Source: Anaerobacillus alkalidiazotrophicus
Lineage (GTDB): Bacteria > Bacillota > Bacilli > Bacillales_H > Anaerobacillaceae
DNA: 64,000 nt
Assembly: GCF_001866055.1 (NCBI RefSeq)
Contig: NZ_MLQS01000001.1
Coordinates: 1,361,616 to 1,425,615 of the forward strand
Direction of reading: 5' to 3'
The notes below the pieces were generated by a model, which made no database searches, had not been told where the DNA came from, and was given only the letters and a program-made list of their open reading frames with translations. Positions 36,508 through 60,335 of the stretch are shown piece by piece. The first letter of the stretch is position 1. The number at the start of each line of letters is the position of its first letter. The position numbers and the translations under genes were made by a program.

Positions 36508-37245
36508 ATGCAGAAAAAAAATAGATACGGTTTACCTAAAGTTGATTTTTTCAAGATTATTGATGTGTATAAGAGTTATGCTGCTTACATTGAAAGAGTT
36601 ATTTTGTTTGGTTCACGGGCTAGAGGGGACTATAAATTAGCGTCTGACATCGATATGGCTATTAAATTTAGAAATGATCATGAAAAGTTTTATAGTATAA
36701 AAGAAAAGCTTTCTCAGTTAAACATCATTTACACCTTTGATTTGTTAGATTACGATAAAATCTCAAATGAAAAGTTGAAAAAATATATTGATACGGAAGG
36801 AAAGACGATTTTTTTAACAAACTCTAAAGGACAGGTGATTGGCAATATGAACAAAATAATAGATAAAATAGGGGATCTAGAGAAGGCATTGAAGAAGCTT
36901 CATGAAAGTTTAGTAAGAGATCCTAAACTAGATGATCTAGTTATTGATGCTACAATCCAACGTTTTGAATTTACATATGAATTGTCGTGGAAGCTAATGA
37001 AAGTCTACTTGGAGTATAATGGTAACTTAGAGGTAACAAGCCCAAGGAGAACAATACAAGAAGCCTTCAAGGAAGGTATTATAACCGAAGGCGATAAGTG
37101 GTTGAAAATGTTAGAAAACCGTAATCGAACGTCTCATACATATGACGAAGAGATTGCGAACGAAATCTACCGTAATATAAAGGAAGAATTTAGTACGATT
37201 TTTGATAGCTTATTAGAAGAAATGAAAAAGAGAGTACAGCCTTAA
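36508..37245 (+). CDS. Fused MNT nucleotidyltransferase-HEPN (HI0073/HI0074-type) protein
   Basis: 245 residues. The N-terminal ~105 residues are a minimal nucleotidyltransferase: FGSRARGD with Gly35-Ser36, Asp47 and Asp49 in ASDIDMAI, and a third acidic residue at Asp78. The C-terminal ~130 residues are a HEPN domain of the HI0074 type. It carries the RNase-type signature Arg205-x4-His210-x-Tyr212 (RNRTSHTY), the motif whose tyrosine is AMPylated by MNT partners in known toxin-antitoxin pairs. Here both halves are one polypeptide, joined near LTNSKGQVIGNMNK. Probably a self-contained toxin-antitoxin or stress module. The ribosome-binding site is weak. Confidence 0.85.
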   Translation: MQKKNRYGLPKVDFFKIIDVYKSYAAYIERVILFGSRARGDYKLASDIDMAIKFRNDHEKFYSIKEKLSQLNIIYTFDLLDYDKISNEKLKKYIDTEGKTIFLTNSKGQVIGNMNKIIDKIGDLEKALKKLHESLVRDPKLDDLVIDATIQRFEFTYELSWKLMKVYLEYNGNLEVTSPRRTIQEAFKEGIITEGDKWLKMLENRNRTSHTYDEEIANEIYRNIKEEFSTIFDSLLEEMKKRVQP

Positions 37246-42665: not shown

Positions 42666-44684
42666 TTACCTGTTTTGATTTACTTCCATTAATTTACCTA
42701 AAAGAAGAGGACTAGCTAAACCATCAACAGGTAGCTTATGTTTAGCTTGAAATTTCATTACTTGTTCAGTTGTAATTGGGCCAAACCAGTTTGTAGGATT
42801 TGACGATACTGAGAAGCCTGCTTTTTCTAAATCTAGTTTTAGCTGAATGACTTCAGAACGTCGATCACCTTCTTGTAAAAATAAAATTTCGCCGTTAATG
42901 GCTTTTCTTAATGTTGTTAATGTTTCGCTATTAGTAACACCTGTTACCGGTAATAGAAAAGCTTTTTGAAATTCTCTGACCTTTTGGGTTGTAATAGGAC
43001 CATACCAGTTTGTAGGGGTTGCAGATACTTGAAAACCTACTTTTTCAAGATCTAGTTTTAATTGGGTGACTTCTGGTCGTCTGTCACCTTCCTTTAAAAC
43101 TTTTTCCGGTATTGGTGAACGAGTAATTTCCCCATTAATGACCTTTTTAAGCGTTAGTAATGTTGTTGAGTCAGCTACACCAGTTTCTTTTAATCCAAAA
43201 ACAGCTTGAAATTCTCTAACTTTTTGAGTTGTGATAGGCCCGTACCAACTTGTAGGAGTTACCGATACACGGAACCCAACTTTTTCAAGGTCTAATTTTA
43301 ATCGAATGACATCGGGGTGATTGTCGCCTTCTTTTAAAATTTGATTAATGACAGGTGGGCGAGTAATCTCCCCATTAATGACTTTTTTAAGTGTTAATAG
43401 TGTTGTTCGATCGGCGATACCCGTTTCGTTTAATCCAAAAACTGTTTGGAACTCTCTAACTTTCTGTGTTGTGACGGGTCCAAACCAATTAGTTGGGTTA
43501 CTAGAAATAAAGAAATTCGCCCTTTCTAAATCGAGTTTTAACTGAATGACTTCTGGAAGGCGATCACCTTCTTTTAACTCAAGTATCTTTGGAGCTTGGA
43601 CGATACCAAAACCAAATAATGGATCCCTTCCGACAGATCCTATATCAAGGGCTGATTGTTGTAATTTTTCTCTTATTTGAATATGAGAAAGTGTAGGATT
43701 AGCTTCTATTAATAAGGCTAATACTCCGGAAACAAAAGGTGCAGCCATTGAAGTCCCACTCATATTTACATAACCATTGTTTAAATGTGTACTATAAATA
43801 TTGACTCCAGGAGCTGTTACCTCAATGGCACTTCCTGTAGCAGAGAATGACGGACGCCTTTCCAATGAATCAATTGCTGATACGGCAATAACAGAAGGAT
43901 AGATAGCTGGATACTGCACAGTGTTGCCAGTCCCTTGTTGATTACCGTTATTTCCTGCCGCAGCAACGACGAGAACCCCTTTATCATAAGCTTTATTAAC
44001 GATATTTTTAAGTGAAAGCGATTCTTGAGATGTCCCTAAGCTAATGTTAATAATATCCATATTGTTTGTAATTGCCCAATCAACTCCAGCAACGATGCGT
44101 GACACAAGTCCTTGTCCGTTTTCATCCAAGGCTTTAACTGCAAATATATTAGCATTTGGGGCTACCCCACTTATTCCATTACCATTGTTTTGTGCAGCGA
44201 TAATTCCAGCTATATGTGTACCGTGTCCATTTTCATCATTATATGAAGTAGAGTCTGGAAGAAATGAAACTCCGCCAGCAATAGTCAAATCTTTATGAAC
44301 AGCGATACCGGTATCAATAATAGCAATGTTTATTCCTTTACCGGTGTATTCTAATTCCCAAGCTGCAGCTGCGTGGACTTTCTCTATACCCCAGTTTTGA
44401 ATTTGACTATTAATCTGAATAATTTGGTCTACTTCTACCGAAAGGACTTTATCATTTTGTTGTAGAAGCATTTTTGCTTCTTCATTAGGCAATTCTGCGA
44501 TTATTGTTGAAACTTGATGATAGGTTTGATCGATTTGCCCATCTAAATCAGTTATTAAAGATTCATCAATATCGTCATGATAGACGATTATTACTTTTTC
44601 AGTAGATGTTTCTGCCCAAGCTTGAGGTAACAATATTAAAAAAACTACTAAAAATAACAAGGGAAATATAAAAACCTTTCTCAT
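42666..44684 (-). CDS. Secreted S8 subtilisin-like protease with four PG-binding repeats
   Basis: 672 residues from ATG 44684 (AAAGGGTG upstream). Signal peptide ~1-24; I9-type propeptide ~28-90; subtilisin domain ~95-365 with the triad Asp124 (IIDTGI), His154 (NGHGTH) and Ser312 (SGTSMAAP). The C-terminal ~300 residues are four tandem ~70-residue PG_binding_1-like repeats (LKEGDRRPEVTQLKLDLEKV, NWYGPITTQKVREFQ). It is an exported, wall-attached endopeptidase. The M14 carboxypeptidase on the other side of the intergenic region (45204) carries the same repeat type and is divergently transcribed. Confidence 0.93.
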   Translation of the reverse strand: MRKVFIFPLLFLVVFLILLPQAWAETSTEKVIIVYHDDIDESLITDLDGQIDQTYHQVSTIIAELPNEEAKMLLQQNDKVLSVEVDQIIQINSQIQNWGIEKVHAAAAWELEYTGKGINIAIIDTGIAVHKDLTIAGGVSFLPDSTSYNDENGHGTHIAGIIAAQNNGNGISGVAPNANIFAVKALDENGQGLVSRIVAGVDWAITNNMDIINISLGTSQESLSLKNIVNKAYDKGVLVVAAAGNNGNQQGTGNTVQYPAIYPSVIAVSAIDSLERRPSFSATGSAIEVTAPGVNIYSTHLNNGYVNMSGTSMAAPFVSGVLALLIEANPTLSHIQIREKLQQSALDIGSVGRDPLFGFGIVQAPKILELKEGDRLPEVIQLKLDLERANFFISSNPTNWFGPVTTQKVREFQTVFGLNETGIADRTTLLTLKKVINGEITRPPVINQILKEGDNHPDVIRLKLDLEKVGFRVSVTPTSWYGPITTQKVREFQAVFGLKETGVADSTTLLTLKKVINGEITRSPIPEKVLKEGDRRPEVTQLKLDLEKVGFQVSATPTNWYGPITTQKVREFQKAFLLPVTGVTNSETLTTLRKAINGEILFLQEGDRRSEVIQLKLDLEKAGFSVSSNPTNWFGPITTEQVMKFQAKHKLPVDGLASPLLLGKLMEVNQNR

Positions 44685-44798
44685 TATCCACACCCTTTAT
44701 CCCATACTATGAATCTATTATAATAGAATGTTTAAAAATATAAATAGAATATTATAGAAATAGTTTGATGAAAAGATAAGAATTTATAAATTTTTGAA

Positions 44799-45203: not shown

Positions 45204-47717
45204 TTGAAAGCCATAATAATTAAAGTGTTTTTATCATTTTTATGTTTCGTATTTTCTTTTCAGCCCCTATTTACTAATATTACATTTGCAGAGACTACTC
45301 ACCAATCTTTTGAATTTGAAGAAGTTGGAGGTGAACTAAACGAAGATATTGTATGGGATCAAAATAAAAGATTAACTGAAGACTTATTTATTAACAGTAA
45401 ATTAATAATAGATCATGCAATTATAGATAGCAATGGGTTTCAGATTATTAATAATTATGAACTACACATAAATGGAAATGTTACGTTTATTGGGATAGAA
45501 GAGGGGAACCTTGAAGATGTAATACTATCAAACGATAGCTCAATTTCTTTTATTTCGTATGACGAGTTTACTAGTTTAGATTTACTCACAGAAGATGAAC
45601 TCGAAATCGACTCTACTGAAAATAACATATCTACAGCGGAAGAAGTTGTAGATGAAATTATTGAGGAAGAAGAAACAGAGGAAAGCGATAAGATAGAAGA
45701 AACGGAACAACTAGAAGAAGAGAATGGTCTAGTATTAAGAGAAGGGGATCGTAATGATGCCGTCATTCAATTAAAGCTTGACCTAGAAAAGGTTGGCTTT
45801 AAAGTCTCAAACAATCCTACGAATTGGTACGGTCCGGTAACAACATTGGCAGTTGTGGAATTCCAAGAAACTCACAATTTAGAGGTAGATGGAGTAGCTG
45901 ATGAAGAGACTTTTAAAAAAATTGCCGAAATCCTTGCATCAGAACTGCAAGAAGAGGCTAGGAATCCTGATGTTATCCAACTAAAGCTTGATTTAGAAAA
46001 AGTCGGCTTCAAAATATCTAGTAACCCTACAGAGTGGTATGGGCCAGTAACAACGAGAACGGTAATGGAGTTTCAAAGGGTTCATGGTTTACCTGAAAAT
46101 GGGATAGCTGATGATTTAACGTTAAAAAAAATTGCTGAAATTCTTGCATCAGATTTGCAAGAAGGGGCTAGAAATACTGATGTCATCCAGTTAAAACTTG
46201 ATTTAGAAAAAGTTGGCTTCAAAATGTCCAATAACCCAACAGAATGGTATGGACCAGTAACAACAAGAACAGTAATGGACTTTCAAAGTACATTTGATAT
46301 TCCAGTTAATGGAATCTCTGATCAACTAACCTTGAATAAGATCAAAGAAGTTAGTTCTTTAGTTCTGAGGGAAGGGGTTCGACATGAAGCCGTAGTACTT
46401 CTAAAAATTAATTTAGAAAAAGTCGGTTTTCGTATTTCAGCAAATCCAACAACCTGGTATGGACCTTCTACCGCTAAAGCAGTTAGAGATTTTCAAAGAG
46501 CTCATAATCTCACAGTTAATGGCGTTGCTGATCAAACTGTTTTAAACAAAATAAATGAGATATTAGCTTCTCCTTTGCAACAAGATGTAAGAAGTAATCA
46601 AGTGATTAGGTTAAAAAGAGACTTCGATCGCGCTGGTTTTTCAGTTTCAGCAAATCCAACAAATTTATATGGGAGGATTACAGCTCAAAGGGTCAGCCAA
46701 TTTCAAAAGTATTATAGCATTCCCGTGAATGGAATTGCTGATCAACTGACTTTATCTACTTTAGACAAAGCTTTAAATGGAGAAATTCGTCCGAAAATAT
46801 CTTCTGTTGTGAATGGAAGACAAATTTATACGTACGAACAAATGGAGAAAGATATTGTCCAATTGAATAGAATGTATCCAGATATTATTGAAACTAGAAT
46901 CATTGGCAAATCGGTTGACGGTAGAAATTTACACGCTATTAAGCTTGGCTTAGGTAAAACAGAAATCTTTATTAATGGTTCCAACCATGCGCGAGAACAT
47001 ATGACAACAAATGTTACGATGAAAATGCTAGACGATTATGCTAGAGCTTATGCTCAAAGAACCAAAATCGATGGCTATGACGCTAGACAAATATTAACAA
47101 ATACTAGTATTTGGTTTGTTCCTATGGTAAATCCGGATGGAGTTACTTTGGTTCAAAAAGGTCATAAAAGTGCCAAAAATCCTCAAGCTGTATTAAGACT
47201 AAATAACAATAGTACTAATTTCAGGTCGTGGAAGGCAAACATTAGAGGTGTGGATTTAAATAGACAGTTTCCAGCATTATGGAATTCAATTACGAATAAT
47301 CCTGGAAAGCCAGGCCCTGAAAATTATAAAGGAACGAAACCTTTAAGTGAGCCCGAAGCAATAGCACTTTACAATTTTACGTTAAGTAGAGATTTTAAAA
47401 CAGCTATTTCATATCATTCTTCTGGAGAAGTGATTTTTACTAGATTGGATCAGGAACCTTTTACACGCAATATCGCTTCAATGGTTTCGCAAAAAACAGG
47501 GTATCGGATTATTGACTTAAAAAACAGTGTGAGTGGTGGTGGGTTTACTGACTGGTTTATTTTAACTCAGAAAAAACCTGCATTAACACCTGAAATTTCA
47601 CCATTTGTTGGTGCTCGCCCTGTACCACTCTCAAATTGGAACACAATCTGGAATCAAAATAACTCAGTTGGTTTAATGTTAGCTAATGAAGCATACGTAA
47701 ATAGAAATAGAAGGTAA
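45204..47717 (+). CDS. Secreted M14 zinc carboxypeptidase with five PG-binding repeats
   Basis: 837 residues, TTG start behind AAAGGTG. Signal peptide ~1-29; an N-terminal region and a Glu-rich linker to ~175; five tandem PG_binding_1-like repeats (~177-530), close in sequence to those of the S8 protease; then an M14 domain. Zinc ligands are His595 and Glu598 in NHARE and His738 in SYHSSGE; the catalytic Glu797 is in TPEISP. FVPMVNPDG and VDLNRQFP are family hallmarks. Likely a wall-bound carboxypeptidase acting on peptides or gamma-D-glutamyl stems. No nearby partner except the S8 protease. Confidence 0.92.
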   Translation: MKAIIIKVFLSFLCFVFSFQPLFTNITFAETTHQSFEFEEVGGELNEDIVWDQNKRLTEDLFINSKLIIDHAIIDSNGFQIINNYELHINGNVTFIGIEEGNLEDVILSNDSSISFISYDEFTSLDLLTEDELEIDSTENNISTAEEVVDEIIEEEETEESDKIEETEQLEEENGLVLREGDRNDAVIQLKLDLEKVGFKVSNNPTNWYGPVTTLAVVEFQETHNLEVDGVADEETFKKIAEILASELQEEARNPDVIQLKLDLEKVGFKISSNPTEWYGPVTTRTVMEFQRVHGLPENGIADDLTLKKIAEILASDLQEGARNTDVIQLKLDLEKVGFKMSNNPTEWYGPVTTRTVMDFQSTFDIPVNGISDQLTLNKIKEVSSLVLREGVRHEAVVLLKINLEKVGFRISANPTTWYGPSTAKAVRDFQRAHNLTVNGVADQTVLNKINEILASPLQQDVRSNQVIRLKRDFDRAGFSVSANPTNLYGRITAQRVSQFQKYYSIPVNGIADQLTLSTLDKALNGEIRPKISSVVNGRQIYTYEQMEKDIVQLNRMYPDIIETRIIGKSVDGRNLHAIKLGLGKTEIFINGSNHAREHMTTNVTMKMLDDYARAYAQRTKIDGYDARQILTNTSIWFVPMVNPDGVTLVQKGHKSAKNPQAVLRLNNNSTNFRSWKANIRGVDLNRQFPALWNSITNNPGKPGPENYKGTKPLSEPEAIALYNFTLSRDFKTAISYHSSGEVIFTRLDQEPFTRNIASMVSQKTGYRIIDLKNSVSGGGFTDWFILTQKKPALTPEISPFVGARPVPLSNWNTIWNQNNSVGLMLANEAYVNRNRR

Positions 47718-51277: not shown

Positions 51278-51329
51278 TAGGCTAAGAAGAAGCGTAAATT
51301 GAGTAACGTGCCAAAAAAAGAAGTGGAAT

Positions 51330-51836
51330 CGCGCATAAATGTATTGCCGCGCACAATCGACAGCGAACCGCGCACAAACGGGAGAGAATCGCGCATAATC
51401 GACAAAGAATCGCGCACAAACGGGAGTGAAACGCTCATAAATGGATTGCCGCGCACAACTAGTGGGGAAACGAGCAGAACAGGGTGAGGAACGCACACAA
51501 ACGGGAGTGAACCGCGCATAATCGACAAAGAATCGCGCACAAACGGGAGAGAATCGCACATAAATGGATTACCGCGCACAACTAGTGGGGAAACGAGCAG
51601 AAAAGGGAGCGGATCGCGCACAATCGACAGCGAACCGCGCACAAACGGGAGTGAACCGCTCATAAATGGATTGCCGCGCACAACTAGTGGGGAAACGAGC
51701 AGAAAAGGGAGCAGAGCGCGCACAATCGACAGCGGACCGCGCACAAACGGGAGAGAATCGCGCATAAATGTATTACCGCGCACAAACGGGAGAGAATCGC
51801 GCATAAATGTATTACCGCGCACAAACGAGAGTGAAT
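51330..51836. repeat. Minisatellite: 25 units of 21 or 18 bp
   Basis: Twenty-five head-to-tail units begin with CGCGCA or a variant: nineteen of 21 bp (for example CGCGCACAAACGGGAGAG+3) and six of 18 bp (such as CGCGCATAAATGTATTAC). All lengths are multiples of three, so frames stay open on both strands and give spurious repetitive ORFs. A higher-order order of unit types (18-bp unit, ACTAGTGGGG unit, GAGCAGAA unit) recurs three times. No ribosome-binding site serves those ORFs. The array lies between two terminators and the cytochrome cluster. Confidence 0.9.
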
Positions 51837-51841
51837 CGCGT

Positions 51842-52195: not shown

Positions 52196-53284
52196 ATGGG
52201 AAAAGATGAAAAAGTGAAGAAGCCGTTCTTAGTGAAAAGAATACGGAGGCGCTTACGTCAAATCAACTGGAGTGATCCAATAAATAAATGGAAACTATTA
52301 TTTTTTTCAGTCGTTGCTTTTGTTATGATTGCCGGATTTTCTTACGGAGCGATCGCAGCAACATCGACTACGTCGTTTTGCTCTAGTTGCCATGAGATGT
52401 CACCGGAGTATGTTTCTCATATATCAACCACTCATAGTGAGATCAAATGTACAGCTTGTCATATTGAACCAGGATTCACAAGCACGATTCTCGGAAAACT
52501 AGCTGCAACAAAAGAAGTTTATCGCCATGTCACTCGTACTCAGCCTAATCCAATTACATTGCCTAAAGCGATGAGGGACGTTGTTTGTTTAGAATGTCAT
52601 TCCCCTAATCGTGTCGTTTCTGCAACTGATAATTTAATTGAAGACCATGATGTTCATCTAGAACAAGGGATTTCTTGTGTGACCTGTCATAGCGGTGTTG
52701 CTCACGCCAAAATGGTTGAACGCGGTATTAACACCAATGATACATACGACTATTGGACAGTTGAAAATGCAGATAAATTAATTACTCGAGATTATGTAAA
52801 AACAAATATGGGTACTTGTATAGATTGTCATTATCAAGTAAACCAAGGCTTAAAGCCATGGGAAGATAAAAACTATATTATTGCTGTTCCGCCTAACGCC
52901 TTTGAAGGACCAATTTTAACATCTAGTGAAGTTTTTGAGACCGTGATACGAACAGCAAACAAGGACGATAAAATTTCAATGGAATGCCAGACATGCCATA
53001 TAGAGATGAAAATTCCAACTCACCATGAGCAAACAGACTGGAATGAAAATCACGGTGAGTATGCCCGTAAACAACTTGAACAGTGTATCACCTGCCACGA
53101 CGAAAATAATTGGGTGAAGAGAGTTCAACCACAATCTATTGAAGAAATATTAGAAGCAAAAGAGATGGCTTGGGATAATTACGTACCTAATATCGAAGTG
53201 GTTCAAAGGGAAGCTGCAAATACCGTTTTCTGCTTAACCTGTCATATAGAGAAGAACCCGGATTTTGTACCGAACAACGAGTAA
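52196..53284 (+). CDS. NapC/NirT-type membrane-anchored octahaem cytochrome c
   Basis: 362 residues. A basic N-terminus (KRIRRRLRQ) and one transmembrane helix (~36-60) precede eight CxxCH haem sites: CSSCH, CTACH, CLECH, CVTCH, CIDCH, CQTCH, CITCH and CLTCH. The first is followed by EM (CSSCHEM), as in NapC/NrfH, where that region meets the quinol. Usual NapC/NrfH proteins carry four haems, so this one is extended. It probably oxidises menaquinol and passes electrons outward. It is the first gene of the 34-haem cluster, 82 bp before the dodecahaem gene. Ribosome-binding site AGGGTGG. Confidence 0.92.
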   Translation: MGKDEKVKKPFLVKRIRRRLRQINWSDPINKWKLLFFSVVAFVMIAGFSYGAIAATSTTSFCSSCHEMSPEYVSHISTTHSEIKCTACHIEPGFTSTILGKLAATKEVYRHVTRTQPNPITLPKAMRDVVCLECHSPNRVVSATDNLIEDHDVHLEQGISCVTCHSGVAHAKMVERGINTNDTYDYWTVENADKLITRDYVKTNMGTCIDCHYQVNQGLKPWEDKNYIIAVPPNAFEGPILTSSEVFETVIRTANKDDKISMECQTCHIEMKIPTHHEQTDWNENHGEYARKQLEQCITCHDENNWVKRVQPQSIEEILEAKEMAWDNYVPNIEVVQREAANTVFCLTCHIEKNPDFVPNNE

Positions 53285-53365: not shown

Positions 53366-54580
53366 GTGAAAAATGATCATGATCAAGAAGAAAAGCAATT
53401 ACAGGAATTAGGCGCTGAAAGTTCAGACGCATATAGAAAAAAATTAAAAATCATTAAGGTCGCAACATTCTTTTTTATTGGATTAGTAGGACTAGCATTA
53501 TCCGTGACAATTGGAGTTCAGGCTACCTCTACGAATACGTTCTGTGCAAGCTGTCATATGATGCAGCCGCAAGTATTAACGTGGGAAGCGTCTTCGCATA
53601 GTTCGGTTAACTGTAAAGATTGTCATATTAAGCCAGGACTTGAAGGGACCGTTGAAGCAAAAATTGGTGGGCTTTGGGAACTTTATCATACCATTACAGA
53701 TACGTATGTTGCACCAATTCGAATGCCAAGTTTAATTCCGGATGAGTCGTGTACAAAGTGTCACAATATGGAAAATAGAAAAGTGACCTCCTCGGGTGAT
53801 ATTATTTCCGAACATGGCATTCATGCCGATAAAGAAGTTAAGTGTGTAACCTGTCACGCTGGTGTGGCACACGGAAAAGTATCAGAACGAAGAGTAACAT
53901 TCAAATCTGATTTTGAACATTGGGATGAAACTTTAGGTGCTTACATGATGAGCTATTCGAAGTATACTGCACCACAAAAAGCGACATGTATGGATTGTCA
54001 TGAACTAAAGCGAGCGCCGTTAACATGTGAAGCATGTCATTCAACAGGGATGTTCCCAATTGATCATGAAGATAAAGACTTTTTAACAAAAAATCATGGG
54101 AAGCTGTCAGAAGAAGAGTTGTTAACCTGTCATAGCTGTCATTCTTTCCAGTCAAAAAATCCTATTAAAGAACTTAAAGACAAAACATATTATACGAAAT
54201 TTATTCTAAGCGAACCTGATCATCAACAAATACCTGTTCAAGAATATGCGAAAACAAATACATTTTGTGCAGATTGTCATAGTCAAAGTCCTGATAGTCA
54301 CCAGGCTAAAGGATTTTTCTCAAAACACGGTACGTTCGTAAATGAAAACAAAGACGGCTGTTTAACCTGTCATGATTATGACAAGTCGTCACAATCGCAA
54401 TCACCTGTCACAAACGTTACTTGTGCAACCTGTCACTCTGGTGGGCATCCAGATCAGTGGCAACAAAAACATCCAACGCCTTTGTCGCCTGAACCGAAGT
54501 TTGACAGAACTTGCTTAAGTTGCCATGTTGAACAAACTTGTACCTCATGTCACATCGATGGAAGAAAAGAAGAAAACTAG
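53366..54580 (+). CDS. NapC/NirT-like membrane-anchored dodecahaem cytochrome c
   Basis: 404 residues, GTG start behind AGGTGGGG. One transmembrane helix (~29-51), then twelve CxxCH motifs, including the overlapping-looking TCHSCH. The first site is followed by MM (CASCHMMQP), resembling the NapC-type quinol end. It shares its plan and VKCVTCHAGVAHGKVSER-like blocks with the upstream octahaem protein, suggesting duplication plus haem gain. The C-terminal half packs haems closely (CATCH, CLSCH, CTSCH in the last ~45 residues before the end), as expected for a conduit through the wall. 15 bp before the TPR gene. Confidence 0.92.
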   Translation: MKNDHDQEEKQLQELGAESSDAYRKKLKIIKVATFFFIGLVGLALSVTIGVQATSTNTFCASCHMMQPQVLTWEASSHSSVNCKDCHIKPGLEGTVEAKIGGLWELYHTITDTYVAPIRMPSLIPDESCTKCHNMENRKVTSSGDIISEHGIHADKEVKCVTCHAGVAHGKVSERRVTFKSDFEHWDETLGAYMMSYSKYTAPQKATCMDCHELKRAPLTCEACHSTGMFPIDHEDKDFLTKNHGKLSEEELLTCHSCHSFQSKNPIKELKDKTYYTKFILSEPDHQQIPVQEYAKTNTFCADCHSQSPDSHQAKGFFSKHGTFVNENKDGCLTCHDYDKSSQSQSPVTNVTCATCHSGGHPDQWQQKHPTPLSPEPKFDRTCLSCHVEQTCTSCHIDGRKEEN

Positions 54581-54595
54581 AAGGAGGGATTTGGA

Positions 54596-55378
54596 ATGGC
54601 AAACAATCACAACAGTAAAGAAGAAAAAGAAAAAGCAAGACAGCGAGAATTAGAGAAAGAATTAGAAATGGAACTAGATGAAGAAATCCAGAAATCAAGA
54701 AATAACGAAACGGAAAAAATCCCACATTTTAAACAGAAGTTTACCATCCTTCAAACGATTGGTTTACTAGTGATAACGTTACTCCTTAGTACAGGTGGTG
54801 GGATCGCGCTTGGGAATGCTTATTTTTGGAATAGTGGAGATATGAAACGAATTAATGAACAACTAGAATTCTATCAAGAAAAAGTAAGCCAAGACCCTAA
54901 CAATCTAGAAGATCGTATTGTTCTTGGTTATACCTACTATTTAAAAGGTGATAACAAAAATGCAATAAACCAATTTAAAACGGTAGTAGACAAGGATGAG
55001 AATTATTTTGATGCGTATTACAATTTAGGGTTGGTGTATTTAGAGGAAGATCGTCATTATGATGCATTATCAATGTTTAACAAAACAGTCCAACTTGCAC
55101 CAAGAGATTTTAAGGGACACGCACAAATGGGAATTACGTACCGTCATTTAAAAATGTATAACGAAGCGATTGAAGCATTGTCTGAAGCAAATAATCTTGC
55201 TCCTGCTAATGCCGATATTATTTATCAAATCGGTCTAGTTGCTGAAGAAGTAGGGGAATATGAAGCGGCAGTTGAAATTTATAAAGATGTATTAAATTAT
55301 GATCCGCTTTTCCAACCAGCTTTAGAAGCGTTAGAACGTGCTCAAAATGTAGTAAAAGAAGTGGGTGATAATTCATGA
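54596..55378 (+). CDS. Membrane-anchored TPR protein of the cytochrome cluster
   Basis: 260 residues, ATG behind GAAGGAGG. A charged coiled-coil start (KEKARQRELEKELEMELDEE), a transmembrane helix (~49-72), then about four TPR repeats (LGYTYYLKGDNKNAINQF, DAYYNLGLVYLEEDRHYDAL, GITYRHLKMYNEAIEAL and IGLVAEEVGEYEAAVEI). The TPR domain should lie outside the membrane. TPR proteins act in cytochrome c maturation (NrfG/CcmH-type) and in assembly of multihaem filaments. Its stop overlaps the next start (ATGA), so it is translationally coupled to the NHL gene. Confidence 0.88.
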   Translation: MANNHNSKEEKEKARQRELEKELEMELDEEIQKSRNNETEKIPHFKQKFTILQTIGLLVITLLLSTGGGIALGNAYFWNSGDMKRINEQLEFYQEKVSQDPNNLEDRIVLGYTYYLKGDNKNAINQFKTVVDKDENYFDAYYNLGLVYLEEDRHYDALSMFNKTVQLAPRDFKGHAQMGITYRHLKMYNEAIEALSEANNLAPANADIIYQIGLVAEEVGEYEAAVEIYKDVLNYDPLFQPALEALERAQNVVKEVGDNS

Positions 55379-56439: not shown

Positions 56440-57879
56440 GTGAAAAAGGTTAGTTTAAGCTTATTGTTTTCTTTATTTTTATTAGGATTATTTGCAACAG
56501 TAGCTTTAGCTGAAGGCCCTATCGGAATTCAAGATCCAGTTGATGGGTATAACGAAGAAGCTGAGCCTAGTGACGTATCGAATGTAAATCCTAATGCTAA
56601 CAAAACAGGTGTACTAGATTTGAAATTAAATCATAGTGGACAGTTAGTGCCGTCATTTGACAAAGGCGGAAGTAGACATGGTAACTATTTAAATAACACA
56701 AACACATGTGCAACGTGTCACCAAACGCACACAGCGTCGAGTAGAAACTTAATTTTTGCAGATAATGTATACCAATCTTGTATTGCATGCCATGATGGTA
56801 CTGGCGGTGGTGCAAGTCGAAATGTTTTAAACACTGATTATGATTTTGTCATGACACGTAATAGTCCAAACGGGTCTGGATCTACTGCAACTACGGCAGG
56901 AACGTTTGCTGGAACACACGCTAGCAATATGAGTGTTCACTTAACAACAGGTACTGTAGCTATTAAAGCTGCACCAGGTGGAAATCCAGAAGGTGATGGC
57001 AAGGCATTTACTTGTGCAAGCTGTCATAACCCACACGGTTCTTACAGTAACAAATACCTTCACCATAATCCTAATGGAATGGCTACAAAACCAGTAACAG
57101 AGGGAGGTAAAGGATTAAAAAACATAAAAGTTGTTAATACTTTATCTGGTTTAACGGCTGCTGATCAATATGTCTTCCATAGAGAAAATGGAAAAATTGT
57201 TTTAAAACAAAGAGTGGGTAACAATTATGTAACGGATAAATCGCCATGGTTAAACGGAAGTTGGGAATTTTCAACGTCAGCTGCTAATACTTCATTAACT
57301 GATAGTCAAGCAGGAGTTACCGTTGATCGTGGTGTAAATGCAAATGAAGCACCATTCATCTCAGGTGATAATGTCAATAGCATAACAAAAGTAACGGTAA
57401 ACCGTGCTTATTTTGTTGAATTACCAACTGATAGAAGGGATTTATGGACGGGTAATGATCATCTAAGAGGAATTCAAATGTCAGAGTTCTGTGCAAGCTG
57501 TCATACAGATTACCTTGCCTCTAGAGGTGTAGGGGTAAACGATGGTAAGAGTTACTTTAATGCAGACAAAGATATTTATGGACACACGACAAACACGAAT
57601 AGCTTTACTTGCGTTCGCTGTCACTATGCACACGGAACAACAGCTGAAATTATGATTGATGCAAAAGGAAATAGCATCTCTTCGTTAACAGCAAGTGGAG
57701 CCATGACAAAGGAGCAAGCACATGACTATATGTTAGATGTAAATCCATCTTCAGCGTTAAAGAAATTTACAAACATGTCTAGCTGTTGGGCTTGTCATAA
57801 CTCATCTAAGAGTGGAAATGTCATTAATACGAATCGATTAATTGATGATCGCCCTACTGGAATGCCAGCAAATAGATAA
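56440..57879 (+). CDS. Secreted OmcS-like hexahaem cytochrome (candidate nanowire subunit)
   Basis: 479 residues, GTG start behind AAGGAGGGG. Signal peptide ~1-24 (cut after VALA), no membrane anchor. Six CxxCH haem sites begin at 90, 114, 192, 351, 391 and 449. Against Geobacter OmcS from memory, the number, order and spacing of haems agree (pair; single; long gap; single; single; C-terminal single). Local motifs agree too: APGG then CASCHNPHGSY; MSEFCASCHTD; CVRCHYAHG; and DAKGNSI before the last haem. OmcS is six-haem and polymerises into micrometre-long conductive filaments. This protein is longer by ~50 residues, mostly between haems 3 and 4. Function inferred, not shown. Confidence 0.88.
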   Translation: MKKVSLSLLFSLFLLGLFATVALAEGPIGIQDPVDGYNEEAEPSDVSNVNPNANKTGVLDLKLNHSGQLVPSFDKGGSRHGNYLNNTNTCATCHQTHTASSRNLIFADNVYQSCIACHDGTGGGASRNVLNTDYDFVMTRNSPNGSGSTATTAGTFAGTHASNMSVHLTTGTVAIKAAPGGNPEGDGKAFTCASCHNPHGSYSNKYLHHNPNGMATKPVTEGGKGLKNIKVVNTLSGLTAADQYVFHRENGKIVLKQRVGNNYVTDKSPWLNGSWEFSTSAANTSLTDSQAGVTVDRGVNANEAPFISGDNVNSITKVTVNRAYFVELPTDRRDLWTGNDHLRGIQMSEFCASCHTDYLASRGVGVNDGKSYFNADKDIYGHTTNTNSFTCVRCHYAHGTTAEIMIDAKGNSISSLTASGAMTKEQAHDYMLDVNPSSALKKFTNMSSCWACHNSSKSGNVINTNRLIDDRPTGMPANR

Positions 57880-57932
57880 AAAGACTACCAAGTAGCTGCC
57901 ACTAATTGATAGTCTATAAAGAGATACCTAAA

Positions 57933-57970
57933 TGACTAATGTATGGGGCTAATAGTCTCATACATTAGTC
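57933..57970 (+). terminator. Hairpin after the OmcS-like gene
   Basis: GACTAATGTATG/CATACATTAGTC is a 12-bp perfect stem with no T-run. It may stabilise the upstream mRNA end or reduce read-through to the next gene. Confidence 0.55.
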
Positions 57971-58172
57971 CTCTAAACAATTATCACTATCATATCGCAT
58001 TTTCATACAGTGCGCTGTAAAAAATGTCACAGTGAAATTATTTTACGGATTTTATTTAAGGTAGAAAGCACGAAATTTATTACTTGGGAAGTTTGCGCTA
58101 GTAATAAAAAGCAATAGTATTATTTAGTTTTTCAAGCTCATTCCGATCAAAACATTAAAGGGTGATACCAGT

Positions 58173-60284
58173 ATGATGCAAAAAAAGGAAGCAAGAAAAA
58201 AACTTATCGTATTCCTCTGTTTCATTATTTTCCTACATATCAATCCATTTATCCCCTCATCACTAGTCGTAATGGGTAATGAATTAGAAACTGAAGAGGG
58301 AGAACAAGATCCAGATCAAACGGAAGAAGGCGAAGAGTTTATTAAACAAAGTGAGGCTCAACAAGACCTTGCTATCACAATCCTCACTCCGGAAACTGGA
58401 TTATCCTTTAATGAGTTGATAGAAGTAAATGGTGAAGTAACTGGTAGTATAGAGGAGACAGTGGAAATAACATTACTTGTTTATAATTATGGTGAAGAGG
58501 ACGTTTTTAAACAGTATGAAAAAATTGCGGTTGATGCTGATGACCATACATGGATTTACGTTATCAACCTTTCTGAGACTGAAAATGAAGATCAATATGT
58601 TTATGAAGATGGAACATATCTATTACAAGCAACATTAAATGACGATGAAGAAATTTCATCAAATGAAGTAACGTTTACAGTTGATCGTAAAGCACCAGAA
58701 ATAGAAATCACAAGCCCTACTAGTGATTTAACAAATCAAGCGATAATTGCAGGAGAAACCGAGAGTGGGGCTATAGTCACGTTATACATCGAGGGAGAAA
58801 CCGAAGCCTTTACAGATCCAATCATTTCTAATGATGAAGGAAAGTTCGTGTTCGAATTAAACGAGTTACAAGACGGAAAGCATACGTTTATTGTGACGGT
58901 CACAAATGAACTAGGGAATATAGCTGAAACTGAAATCACATTTGTATATGATGGTACAAGTCCATTCGTTTCAACGAATTCCCTTTTTCCTAAACCGAAT
59001 ATGTCGCAAGTATCAGTAGAGACTTTAAAGGTAAAAGCAAAAATTATGGATGAAAATATTGATTTAACGAGTGTTGTCACCCCAATTGAAGTAACTGAAC
59101 AAGGGACAGGTAAGAAAGTGACAGGTACGTATGATATAGTGGATGAAACGATTATTTTTACTCCCAATTCTGGGGAAATAAAACCGAATACAAAATATTT
59201 TGTGATCATAAATCCAACGATCACTGACAAAGCAGGAAACTTCATCCACTCTAGAAACTGGTCATTTACGACTGCAACGAGTACGAATGTGGGAAGTCCT
59301 CATGGCGGGTATACGAACAATACGAACTCCTGTAAAATTTGCCATGGCGTTCATGCAGCATCAGAACCGAAAATCGAGCAAGTTAATCTAGAGTACGCAG
59401 ATGATCCAAATAAAGAATTAAAAGAAAAGGTCGTTCCTGATGCGATCAATGGCTATTGTATGACTTGTCATGACGGAACGGTTGCGAGTAATATGACAAA
59501 CCACCAAAACAAAAAGTCCGACCACAATATGCAACTAGTTCGAAAAGGAGATAACAAGGTCGTCAGCCAATCATGTGGAAACTGCCACAATGTTCACTTA
59601 GACTCCCATTCTAGCAACCCAAATTTACTAAAAGATCATTTTGTTTTTGATCATGTTGGTATTGCTGGAGTTGGGAAAATTGATAGTAGTGAACGTTTAT
59701 GCGAATCGTGTCATCAGTATGATTTGCTAGATGTTTTAAATGAAGATCAGTATCAAGTGTTTTCTTACCGTCATTGGAATACGAGCCAAGAAGAGATTGA
59801 CGGTGATCACTTCGGTTCAGTAGATGATTATCGCCTATGCCTTCGTTGCCATAATGAAGAGTATGCCAATACGTATAAAAATGTTGAAGATATTGAAACG
59901 CACTATAAAAACACGAACTCCGGACACAATATTGCTTTTTCAAAAATAAAGGACGGAACGCTATTAGACGGAAACATGCCTTGTGCTACATGCCATGAAA
60001 CTCATAGCTCACCGAATGATAAGTTAATAAAATCAGAGCTCGGGGTGAATGCTGATCTTTTAATAGGATGGTCTAGCTCAGATGAACGAAGCTTTTGTTT
60101 AAGTTGTCACAACAATGAGACTGAAGTATTTGGAATTACTGTACCTTTACCGATGACAAGAACTAACGGGAATCCGATTGGACCACACCAATCGACAAGC
60201 GATAGAGCATGTTCAGACTGTCACGGTGGAGAATCCAAAACGTTTGTAGAAGCAGCACACTCACCAAGTCGGCGAGGGAATTAA
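58173..60284 (+). CDS. Surface protein with Ig-like domains and eight haem sites
   Basis: 703 residues. Signal peptide ~1-30, acidic linker, then two bacterial Ig-like domains (~65-260; ITSPTSDLTNQAIIAGETES, VTNELGNIAETEITFVYDGT) and a Big_5-like domain (~265-370; EIKPNTKYFVIINPTITDKA). The C-terminal ~330 residues hold eight CxxCH sites: CKICH, CMTCH, CGNCH, CESCH, CLRCH, CATCH, CLSCH and CSDCH, in the doubled-CXXCH style (SPHGGYTNNTNSCKICHGVH resembles the region before haem 1 of the OmcS-like protein). Exported with no membrane anchor or LPXTG. A possible contact between filament and wall, or a terminal reductase. Confidence 0.9.
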   Translation: MMQKKEARKKLIVFLCFIIFLHINPFIPSSLVVMGNELETEEGEQDPDQTEEGEEFIKQSEAQQDLAITILTPETGLSFNELIEVNGEVTGSIEETVEITLLVYNYGEEDVFKQYEKIAVDADDHTWIYVINLSETENEDQYVYEDGTYLLQATLNDDEEISSNEVTFTVDRKAPEIEITSPTSDLTNQAIIAGETESGAIVTLYIEGETEAFTDPIISNDEGKFVFELNELQDGKHTFIVTVTNELGNIAETEITFVYDGTSPFVSTNSLFPKPNMSQVSVETLKVKAKIMDENIDLTSVVTPIEVTEQGTGKKVTGTYDIVDETIIFTPNSGEIKPNTKYFVIINPTITDKAGNFIHSRNWSFTTATSTNVGSPHGGYTNNTNSCKICHGVHAASEPKIEQVNLEYADDPNKELKEKVVPDAINGYCMTCHDGTVASNMTNHQNKKSDHNMQLVRKGDNKVVSQSCGNCHNVHLDSHSSNPNLLKDHFVFDHVGIAGVGKIDSSERLCESCHQYDLLDVLNEDQYQVFSYRHWNTSQEEIDGDHFGSVDDYRLCLRCHNEEYANTYKNVEDIETHYKNTNSGHNIAFSKIKDGTLLDGNMPCATCHETHSSPNDKLIKSELGVNADLLIGWSSSDERSFCLSCHNNETEVFGITVPLPMTRTNGNPIGPHQSTSDRACSDCHGGESKTFVEAAHSPSRRGN

Positions 60285-60299
60285 CGAGTAAACACGAAA

Positions 60300-60335
60300 T
60301 GAGGAATGAGCGATTGCGTTCGTTCCTTTTTTTGT
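60300..60335 (+). terminator. Terminator of the multihaem cluster
   Basis: AGGAATGAGCG/CGTTCGTTCCT with a T7 tail. Confidence 0.88.

Follow-up and report, generated by a model that had tools for sequence, protein, structure and literature searches.

Operon and hexahaem protein

The window considered here, a stretch of 64,000 nucleotides from Anaerobacillus alkalidiazotrophicus (NZ_MLQS01000001.1, positions 1,361,616 to 1,425,615 of the forward strand), carries an operon of multihaem cytochrome genes (Table 1). From 5' to 3' the order is a NapC-type gene with eight haem sites, a NapC-type gene with 12, a TPR gene, an NHL gene, the hexahaem gene, a hairpin, an octahaem gene and a terminator-like stem. 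The hexahaem gene begins with GTG and, as read from the translated open reading frame, its stop codon ends at position 57879.

Table 1. Features of the cytochrome operon, in window coordinates
Feature	Position	Strand	Remarks
NapC/NrfH-type membrane cytochrome, 8 CxxCH	52196..53284	+	PF03264 E 1.4e-24; predicted quinol-oxidising entry point
NapC/NrfH-type membrane cytochrome, 12 CxxCH	53366..54580	+	PF03264 E 2.4e-19
TPR protein, one hydrophobic segment near N-terminus	54596..55378	+	weak CcmH/CycH-type TPR match, 38.2 bits (cut-off 42)
NHL beta-propeller, N-terminal hydrophobic segment	55375..56343	+	PF01436 E 6.1e-21; overlaps TPR gene by 4 bases
Hexahaem cytochrome (OmcS/CwcA-like)	56440..57879	+	479 aa; predicted signal peptide ~residues 1-24
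Codon of His97 (CATCHQTH97)	56728..56730	+	place of OmcS mature His16; His in 87/87 A3 rows
Strong hairpin, 17 bp stem, no T-run	57929..57975	+	z -6.0
Octahaem cytochrome, N-terminal Ig-like domains (Big_5, Big_13)	58173..60284	+	candidate anchor, cap or outlet
Terminator-like stem-loop with T-run, operon end	60301..60328	+	

The N-terminus of the hexahaem protein is a hydrophobic, signal-peptide-like segment with a predicted end near residue 24. The initial annotation described six CxxCH sites at residues 90, 114, 192, 351, 391 and 449, and this is exactly what the protein contains; 2000 shuffles of its composition yielded at most one such site each (mean 0.0125). The motifs that were named as OmcS-like can also be found (APGG...CASCHNPHG, MSEFCASCHTD, CVRCHYAHG, DAKGNSI and a C-terminal CWACH), and comparison with the 6EF8 sequence confirms that they are motifs of OmcS itself. 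Only generic doubled-CXXCH and c3/c7 models pass their cut-offs in Pfam and NCBIfam, and no reductase family in these two collections reaches its cut-off. The Gram-positive background that had been assumed is likely, with the closest named relatives among the matches listed belonging to Anaerobacillus and Evansella (40-44% identity) and with peptidoglycan-binding proteins encoded nearby. In the octahaem protein the haem region starts with an H, CxxCHxxH unit like that of the hexahaem protein and has an extra C-terminal histidine. Downstream of the hexahaem gene, bases 57920-57990 fold at -24.5 kcal/mol (z -6.0).

Several other features of the window may be recorded. Just upstream of the operon lies a tandem-repeat array (51326-51840), in which units of 18-21 bases are nested within units of 39, 102, 123 and 225 bases; the open frames across it may exist only because of the repeat. 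Arrays of peptidoglycan-binding repeats occur in a subtilase and an M14 carboxypeptidase encoded by adjoining genes on opposite strands (42666-44693 and 45204-47717, with four and five matched stretches). The gene at 36508-37245 encodes 245 residues in which an MntA-like nucleotidyltransferase domain is fused to an HI0074/HepT-like partner domain; the two are usually encoded by separate genes. At 406-899 a 23S rRNA gene ends and a 5S rRNA gene follows.

Conserved histidines and gene order

A search of 5.8 billion proteins gave 7993 scored candidates and 621 relatives of the hexahaem protein at E<1e-3. The organisms named among the best 120, which were listed, are all Bacillaceae (Anaerobacillus, Evansella, Neobacillus, Mesobacillus and Bacillus), and some relatives carry SH3 or fn3 domains. 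Alignment A1 holds 33 proteins, namely the window protein (P0001) and 32 listed relatives, and A3 holds 87 rows drawn from P0001, listed proteins and 19 genome loci; the rows of both were picked by eye, with many similar or long relatives omitted. Twelve histidines are invariant in A1, six within the CxxCH sites (94, 118, 196, 355, 395 and 453) and six elsewhere (80, 97, 167, 199, 382 and 398). Eleven of them stay invariant in A3 and His382 is kept in 99%. Twelve conserved histidines are the requirement of six bis-His haems, and we presume from the alignments that these residues are the haem ligands. The ligand that passes between OmcS subunits is presumably His16, just after the first CxxCH of the mature protein. 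In a joint alignment of 18 proteins the His97 column of the window family aligns with an OmcS-family histidine in all 18 rows.

Departures from the single hexahaem protein were also seen. In Carboxydothermus islandicus (G003; L078, 532-3063) an 843-residue protein fuses a hexahaem unit to a second, unlike six-site domain; we considered a tandem of two hexahaem units and rejected it, as the site pattern differs in the second half. In four Bacillaceae operons (L057, L058, L069 and L072) the single protein is replaced by two to four shorter hexahaem-like proteins in tandem, of about 340-445 residues, one of which has eight sites.

A genome scan with the single hexahaem protein found no loci, and one with the hexahaem alignment produced 75 loci in bacterial genomes from its best 80 matches. 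All but one (74) match at least one of the six proteins of the window operon, and 67 have a hexahaem-like frame (five to eight sites, on the matched strand). Counting from the first such frame per locus, and with some contigs ending too early to tell, the genes directly upstream are NHL in 60 of the 67, TPR-NHL in 59 and NapC2-TPR-NHL in 53, with a further NapC-type gene in 41; an octahaem gene follows downstream in 42. The loci among these best 80 matches come from Bacillaceae, from Thermincola-, Desulfosporosinus-, Dethiobacter- and Carboxydothermus-labelled genomes, from two Chloroflexi and from one Desulfovibrio-labelled genome. Bacillaceae conserve the operon, and genomes labelled Thermincola and Desulfosporosinus retain part of it. 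Should the family polymerise like OmcS, the recurrence of the TPR-NHL-hexahaem cassette would point to core assembly factors of cytochrome wires, in a setting free of outer-membrane export. Six stretches from two Thermincola-labelled genomes (L120-L125) contain nine TPR-NHL-cytochrome cassettes, whose cytochromes have six or seven sites; five of the cassettes lie behind genes for 15-17 haems. These stretches also encode very long multihaem proteins of 1754-2050 residues, one of which is ended by the stretch boundary.

The hairpin is a recurrent feature where an octahaem gene comes next, as 36 of 41 such operons have a fold of z < -3 in the first 100 bases 3' of the hexahaem gene (median -5.8). 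In the gap before the hexahaem gene such folds occur in only three of 48 cases. They follow hexahaem frames that have no octahaem gene next in 23/44 cases and, as expected for terminators, octahaem genes in 26/47; among the few long gaps they are found in two of four between NapC-type genes and three of four before the TPR gene. A run of five T lies within 110 bases in 19 of the 41 operons. Acting through partial termination or 3'-end protection, the hairpin would raise the amount of hexahaem protein above that of the octahaem protein. A polymer with a cap or outlet would need such unequal amounts.

Relation to OmcS

A phmmer search with P0001 alone returned no match to OmcS in the PDB at E values up to 10. 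The A1 profile did so, with OmcS (6EF8) as the best of three PDB matches (E 6.2e-4). From the other end, a 407-residue OmcS query, identical to 6EF8 chain A throughout, gave 7997 scored proteins and 4060 at E<1e-3; the best 120 were listed and 31 aligned (A2). The conserved histidines of the OmcS family follow the order H, CxxCHxxH, CxxCH three times over, with one extra histidine at 90%. The window family has the same order without the extra residue, and the order is absent from the two NapC-type families of the same operons and partial in the octahaem family. In the joint alignment 10 of the 12 histidines share columns in 18/18 rows; the two exceptions, the first and ninth, agree in order only.

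The strength of the resemblance was gauged against sequences in which the CxxCH sites were retained and all residues between them shuffled. The OmcS profile scored 69 hexahaem relatives at a median of 13.1 bits vs. -5.7 for 345 shuffled sequences (best shuffled 16.5), and the A3 profile scored 120 OmcS-family proteins at 26.8 bits vs. -7.7 for 600 shuffled (best shuffled 20.2). NapC-type proteins, which have more sites, had a median score below zero in this profile scoring. P0001 itself reached 14.7 bits with the OmcS profile, against 14.5 for the best of its 300 shuffled copies and a median of -5.7. The window octahaem protein scored 13.6 bits, and the median of 41 octahaem relatives was -2.8. 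Once the CxxCH sites were masked, real and shuffled scores were alike (-1.3 vs. -1.9 and -2.0 vs. -2.4) and the profile signal was gone. A likeness to OmcS outside the CxxCH sites, on which the first reading depended, therefore stands only in part: the signal is lost on masking, but it is also mostly lost when the rest is shuffled with the sites kept, and we conclude that the similarity resides in the close surroundings and the spacing of the haem sites. Local hhalign comparison of the 33-row profile with OmcS gave one 51-column segment only. Global hhalign gave 99.7% for A3-A2 and 99.8% for bridge-A2, with control pairs that were not all low (W6-A2 98.0%, W1-A3 98.3%, W6-A3 99.8%), so that we place no weight on these values.

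A family of intermediate character links the two ends. The TPR-NHL-hexahaem genes of a Dethiobacter-labelled genome (L062) include one for a hexahaem protein of 447 residues, predicted to start, once mature, with AFHPPDDAGRTCFRCHSTH, which is similar to the OmcS start AFHSGGVAECEGCHTMH. A search with this protein recovered nine proteins at E<1e-3 including the query (P0242-P0250), and these together with L060 and L061 make up the bridge profile. In one member, P0246, the last CxxCH is lost through a short alignment gap, leaving five sites. We came across no name for this family. It has the OmcS histidine order plus two extra histidines. It is like the window protein in ligand order and in its TPR-NHL-hexahaem genes, which in L060 and L062 follow a gene for 21 haems, and differs in that its predicted mature start sets Phe/Leu-His beside haem site 1, as in OmcS.

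At E<1e-3 the bridge profile matches 69/69 window-type hexahaem proteins and 109 of the 120 listed OmcS-family proteins, with none among the shuffled controls (0/207 and 0/360) or the NapC-type proteins (0/46 and 0/57). With the OmcS profile the E-values of the 11 bridge proteins run from 1.9e-7 to 3.4e-3, and 0/330 shuffled copies fall below 1e-3. The A3 profile finds them at 2.6e-43 to 5.8e-30, but three of 330 shuffled copies also fall below 1e-3 (best 6.3e-6), which means that such E-values flatter haem-rich sequences. The bridge profile also matches 20 of 41 octahaem homologues, and as octahaem proteins score with both the OmcS and the bridge profiles the signal belongs to a wider cytochrome superfamily. 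Overall, there is good evidence, drawn from these sequence comparisons, that the window family and OmcS share common descent, with the octahaem proteins as further cousins. The proposal of an OmcS-type subunit thus survives as a remote homologue with an identical order of 12 histidines, including the place of the inter-subunit ligand, but with no direct pairwise match.

Predicted function and known systems

Electrons that leave a Gram-positive cell have 20-80 nm of cell wall to cross (PMC7911101). Slightly better than evenly balanced, in our judgement, is the case that the hexahaem protein, as a remote relative of OmcS, forms a head-to-tail polymer, a chain of haems carrying electrons through the cell wall and probably beyond it. 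In such a scheme the two NapC-type membrane cytochromes would take electrons from menaquinol, the TPR protein would hold the apocytochrome during haem loading, and the NHL propeller would shape or guard assembly. In OmcS 11 ligand histidines come from the subunit itself and one, for haem 5, from its neighbour (PMC6584659; PMC7096707). If the pairing is as in OmcS, haem 5 (His395) of each subunit would be short of one ligand until the next subunit docks, and His97 of that subunit would fill it, such that chain growth and completion of the haem site would be one event. The octahaem Ig-domain protein, whose level the hairpin would keep down, may anchor, cap or discharge the chain; it is speculation that its H, CxxCHxxH unit and extra C-terminal histidine would let it end the chain. 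An outer-membrane export machine would not be needed. Were the family to polymerise like OmcS, haem wires would be a general monoderm solution, reaching beyond thermophilic Thermincola to culturable Bacillaceae.

Predicted structures bear little on this. Two AlphaFold2 models of the hexahaem protein (pLDDT 72.4 and 73.0; pTM 0.74 and 0.73) had no relevant match in the PDB by Foldseek, nor did the first by VIA-align, and they are uninformative on the OmcS fold. VIA-align of the first model matched only a beta-rich stretch (226-322), weakly, to a phage tailspike. The low-confidence stretches, which include residues 69-89 and 97-101 in the first model and 22-57 in the second, would suit a tail that becomes ordered only in the polymer, and we do not count them as evidence.

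Other readings must be weighed against a polymer. The resemblance to OmcS might be convergence, with short motifs of the kind expected of any doubled-CXXCH cytochrome, and the fall of the masked scores to background and the partial pattern of the octahaem neighbours would fit this. We nevertheless hold it to be highly improbable: the median score drops sharply in shuffled sequences that keep their CxxCH sites, NapC-type proteins do not match despite having more sites, the intermediate family with its OmcS-like mature start bridges both ends, and the NHL neighbour is common to both. As a whole explanation convergence is disfavoured by the bridge family and the controls. A catalytic role, as a secreted multihaem reductase of oxyanions or metals, for example, rather than a conduit, is suggested by Gram-positive surface multihaem proteins such as OcwA, which are reductases (PMC7096707). 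This too seems very unlikely, since six haems with 12 conserved histidines have no evident vacant site and generic doubled-CXXCH and c3/c7 models are the only families at cut-off.

The hexahaem protein could also be a carrier, embedded in the wall or secreted, that belongs to the same superfamily and has the same place in the operon but does not polymerise, with single molecules or short stacks relaying electrons by contact. This is a serious possibility, if a rather doubtful one. The OmcS paralogues OmcT, OmcJ and GSU2501 are, by one account, not known as wire formers (PMC12977616), and both the relatives with SH3 or fn3 domains and the Carboxydothermus fusion (L078) of the hexahaem unit with another six-site domain suit fixed surface proteins as well as filaments. 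On the other hand, His97 is kept in 87/87 rows and, if the pairing is that of OmcS, would have no spare haem to ligate within its own chain, and the hairpin between the hexahaem and octahaem genes points to unequal amounts of the two products. The same account describes OmcS as the only one of its G. sulfurreducens paralogues known to form a wire, and the paralogues as not reliably told apart by sequence (PMC12977616). What cytochrome filaments do physiologically is also under dispute (PMC11077965).

The head-to-tail polymer can also be set beside the gene clusters of OmcS. An NHL gene adjoins the OmcS-type gene in eight of 12 OmcS-family loci with short flanks, from genomes of the phylum of G005, and in L098 this NHL protein matches that of the window at 9e-20, a value to be read with the wide cross-matching of NHL repeats in mind. 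In five of six longer stretches (L094, L095, L097-L099) the cluster also encodes a PPIase, another propeller, a protein of some 755-775 residues (a longer frame in L094) and an LpoB/GNA1162-like protein with weak likeness to CsgG, by the domains read in L098. OscD is reportedly a beta-propeller and OscH a prolyl isomerase, as Shen et al. are said to have described in 2025. This cluster, the osc operon, has been assigned functions in folding (OscH), secretion (OscEFG) and morphology (OscD) (PMC13194489). In searches of the 75 loci and of the six window proteins the PPIase and the 775-residue protein had no match, and the LpoB/CsgG-like protein had one in just two loci, L071 (Deltaproteobacteria-labelled) and L073 (Poribacteria-labelled); the positive control recovered all three in five of the six OmcS-cluster stretches. 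Both systems have a propeller-type companion, and the export genes were not found in the Bacillota loci, as would be expected of a monoderm cell. A more far-reaching scheme, which we put forward tentatively and think unlikely, is that Bacillaceae build OmcS-type wires from a minimal TPR-propeller-hexahaem kit. Here Gram-positive CwcA systems and the osc cluster of Geobacter would have the propeller-hexahaem pair as their common ancestral core, with export across the outer membrane as an addition in diderms; the octahaem protein would end or anchor the wire by lending its first CxxCHxxH histidine to the last open haem, and the conserved hairpin would set the ratio of subunit to cap.

Compared with OmcS of Geobacter (6EF8), then, the window protein shares six CxxCH sites, the identical order of 12 histidines, local motifs and an NHL propeller gene that often adjoins, but it has an extra N-terminal extension and gives no direct pairwise match; its gene has NapC-type neighbours instead of the PPIase, 775-residue and LpoB/CsgG-like ones. 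SmhB has been placed beside a group of "bacillary hexahemes" in a study of Carboxydothermus ferrireducens (PMC7829351), the main text of which does not mention OmcS. SmhB is a dodecahaem protein, and the 12-site C. islandicus protein (L078) carries a window-type hexahaem unit at its N-terminus.

The closest parallel is CwcA, the hexahaem protein Tfer_0075/TherJR_1122 of Thermincola, which is 18% identical to OmcS (PMC7911101). The idea of haem nanowires without an outer membrane, raised by the initial annotation, is not new: CwcA was modelled in 2021 as an OmcS-like polymer in peptidoglycan, its haem 5 perhaps completed by another subunit (PMC7911101), and the model was repeated in a 2025 review (PMC12203936). 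Four cwcA copies have been described in one metagenome bin (PMC11748539). Open-access literature searches, in their top results, showed no earlier description of a Bacillaceae protein of the OmcS or CwcA type. One Thermincola-labelled stretch (L123) has genes for 10-haem, 12-haem, 17-haem, TPR, NHL and six-haem proteins in this order. TherJR_1117 is a ten-haem membrane protein (PMC7911101), and from haem counts and gene order we infer that the L123 cluster is TherJR_1117..1122. For the hexahaem protein of L123 the A3 profile gives E 4e-15 and the OmcS profile 2.4e-5, the latter with 27.4 bits against 12.1 for the best of 200 shuffled copies. On this reading, both CwcA and the window protein are Gram-positive hexahaem proteins encoded after NapC-type multihaem genes, TPR and NHL, and for both an OmcS-like arrangement with a haem 5 ligand from another subunit is proposed. 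The window protein differs from that of L123 in having some 55 more N-terminal residues ahead of the first conserved histidine and a wider spacing of haem sites 3 and 4 (159 vs. 78 residues between histidines), and its operon has an octahaem Ig-domain neighbour but no 17-haem gene. Overall, the window appears to encode a CwcA-like system in a Bacillaceae-type form, with CwcA as its likely relative.
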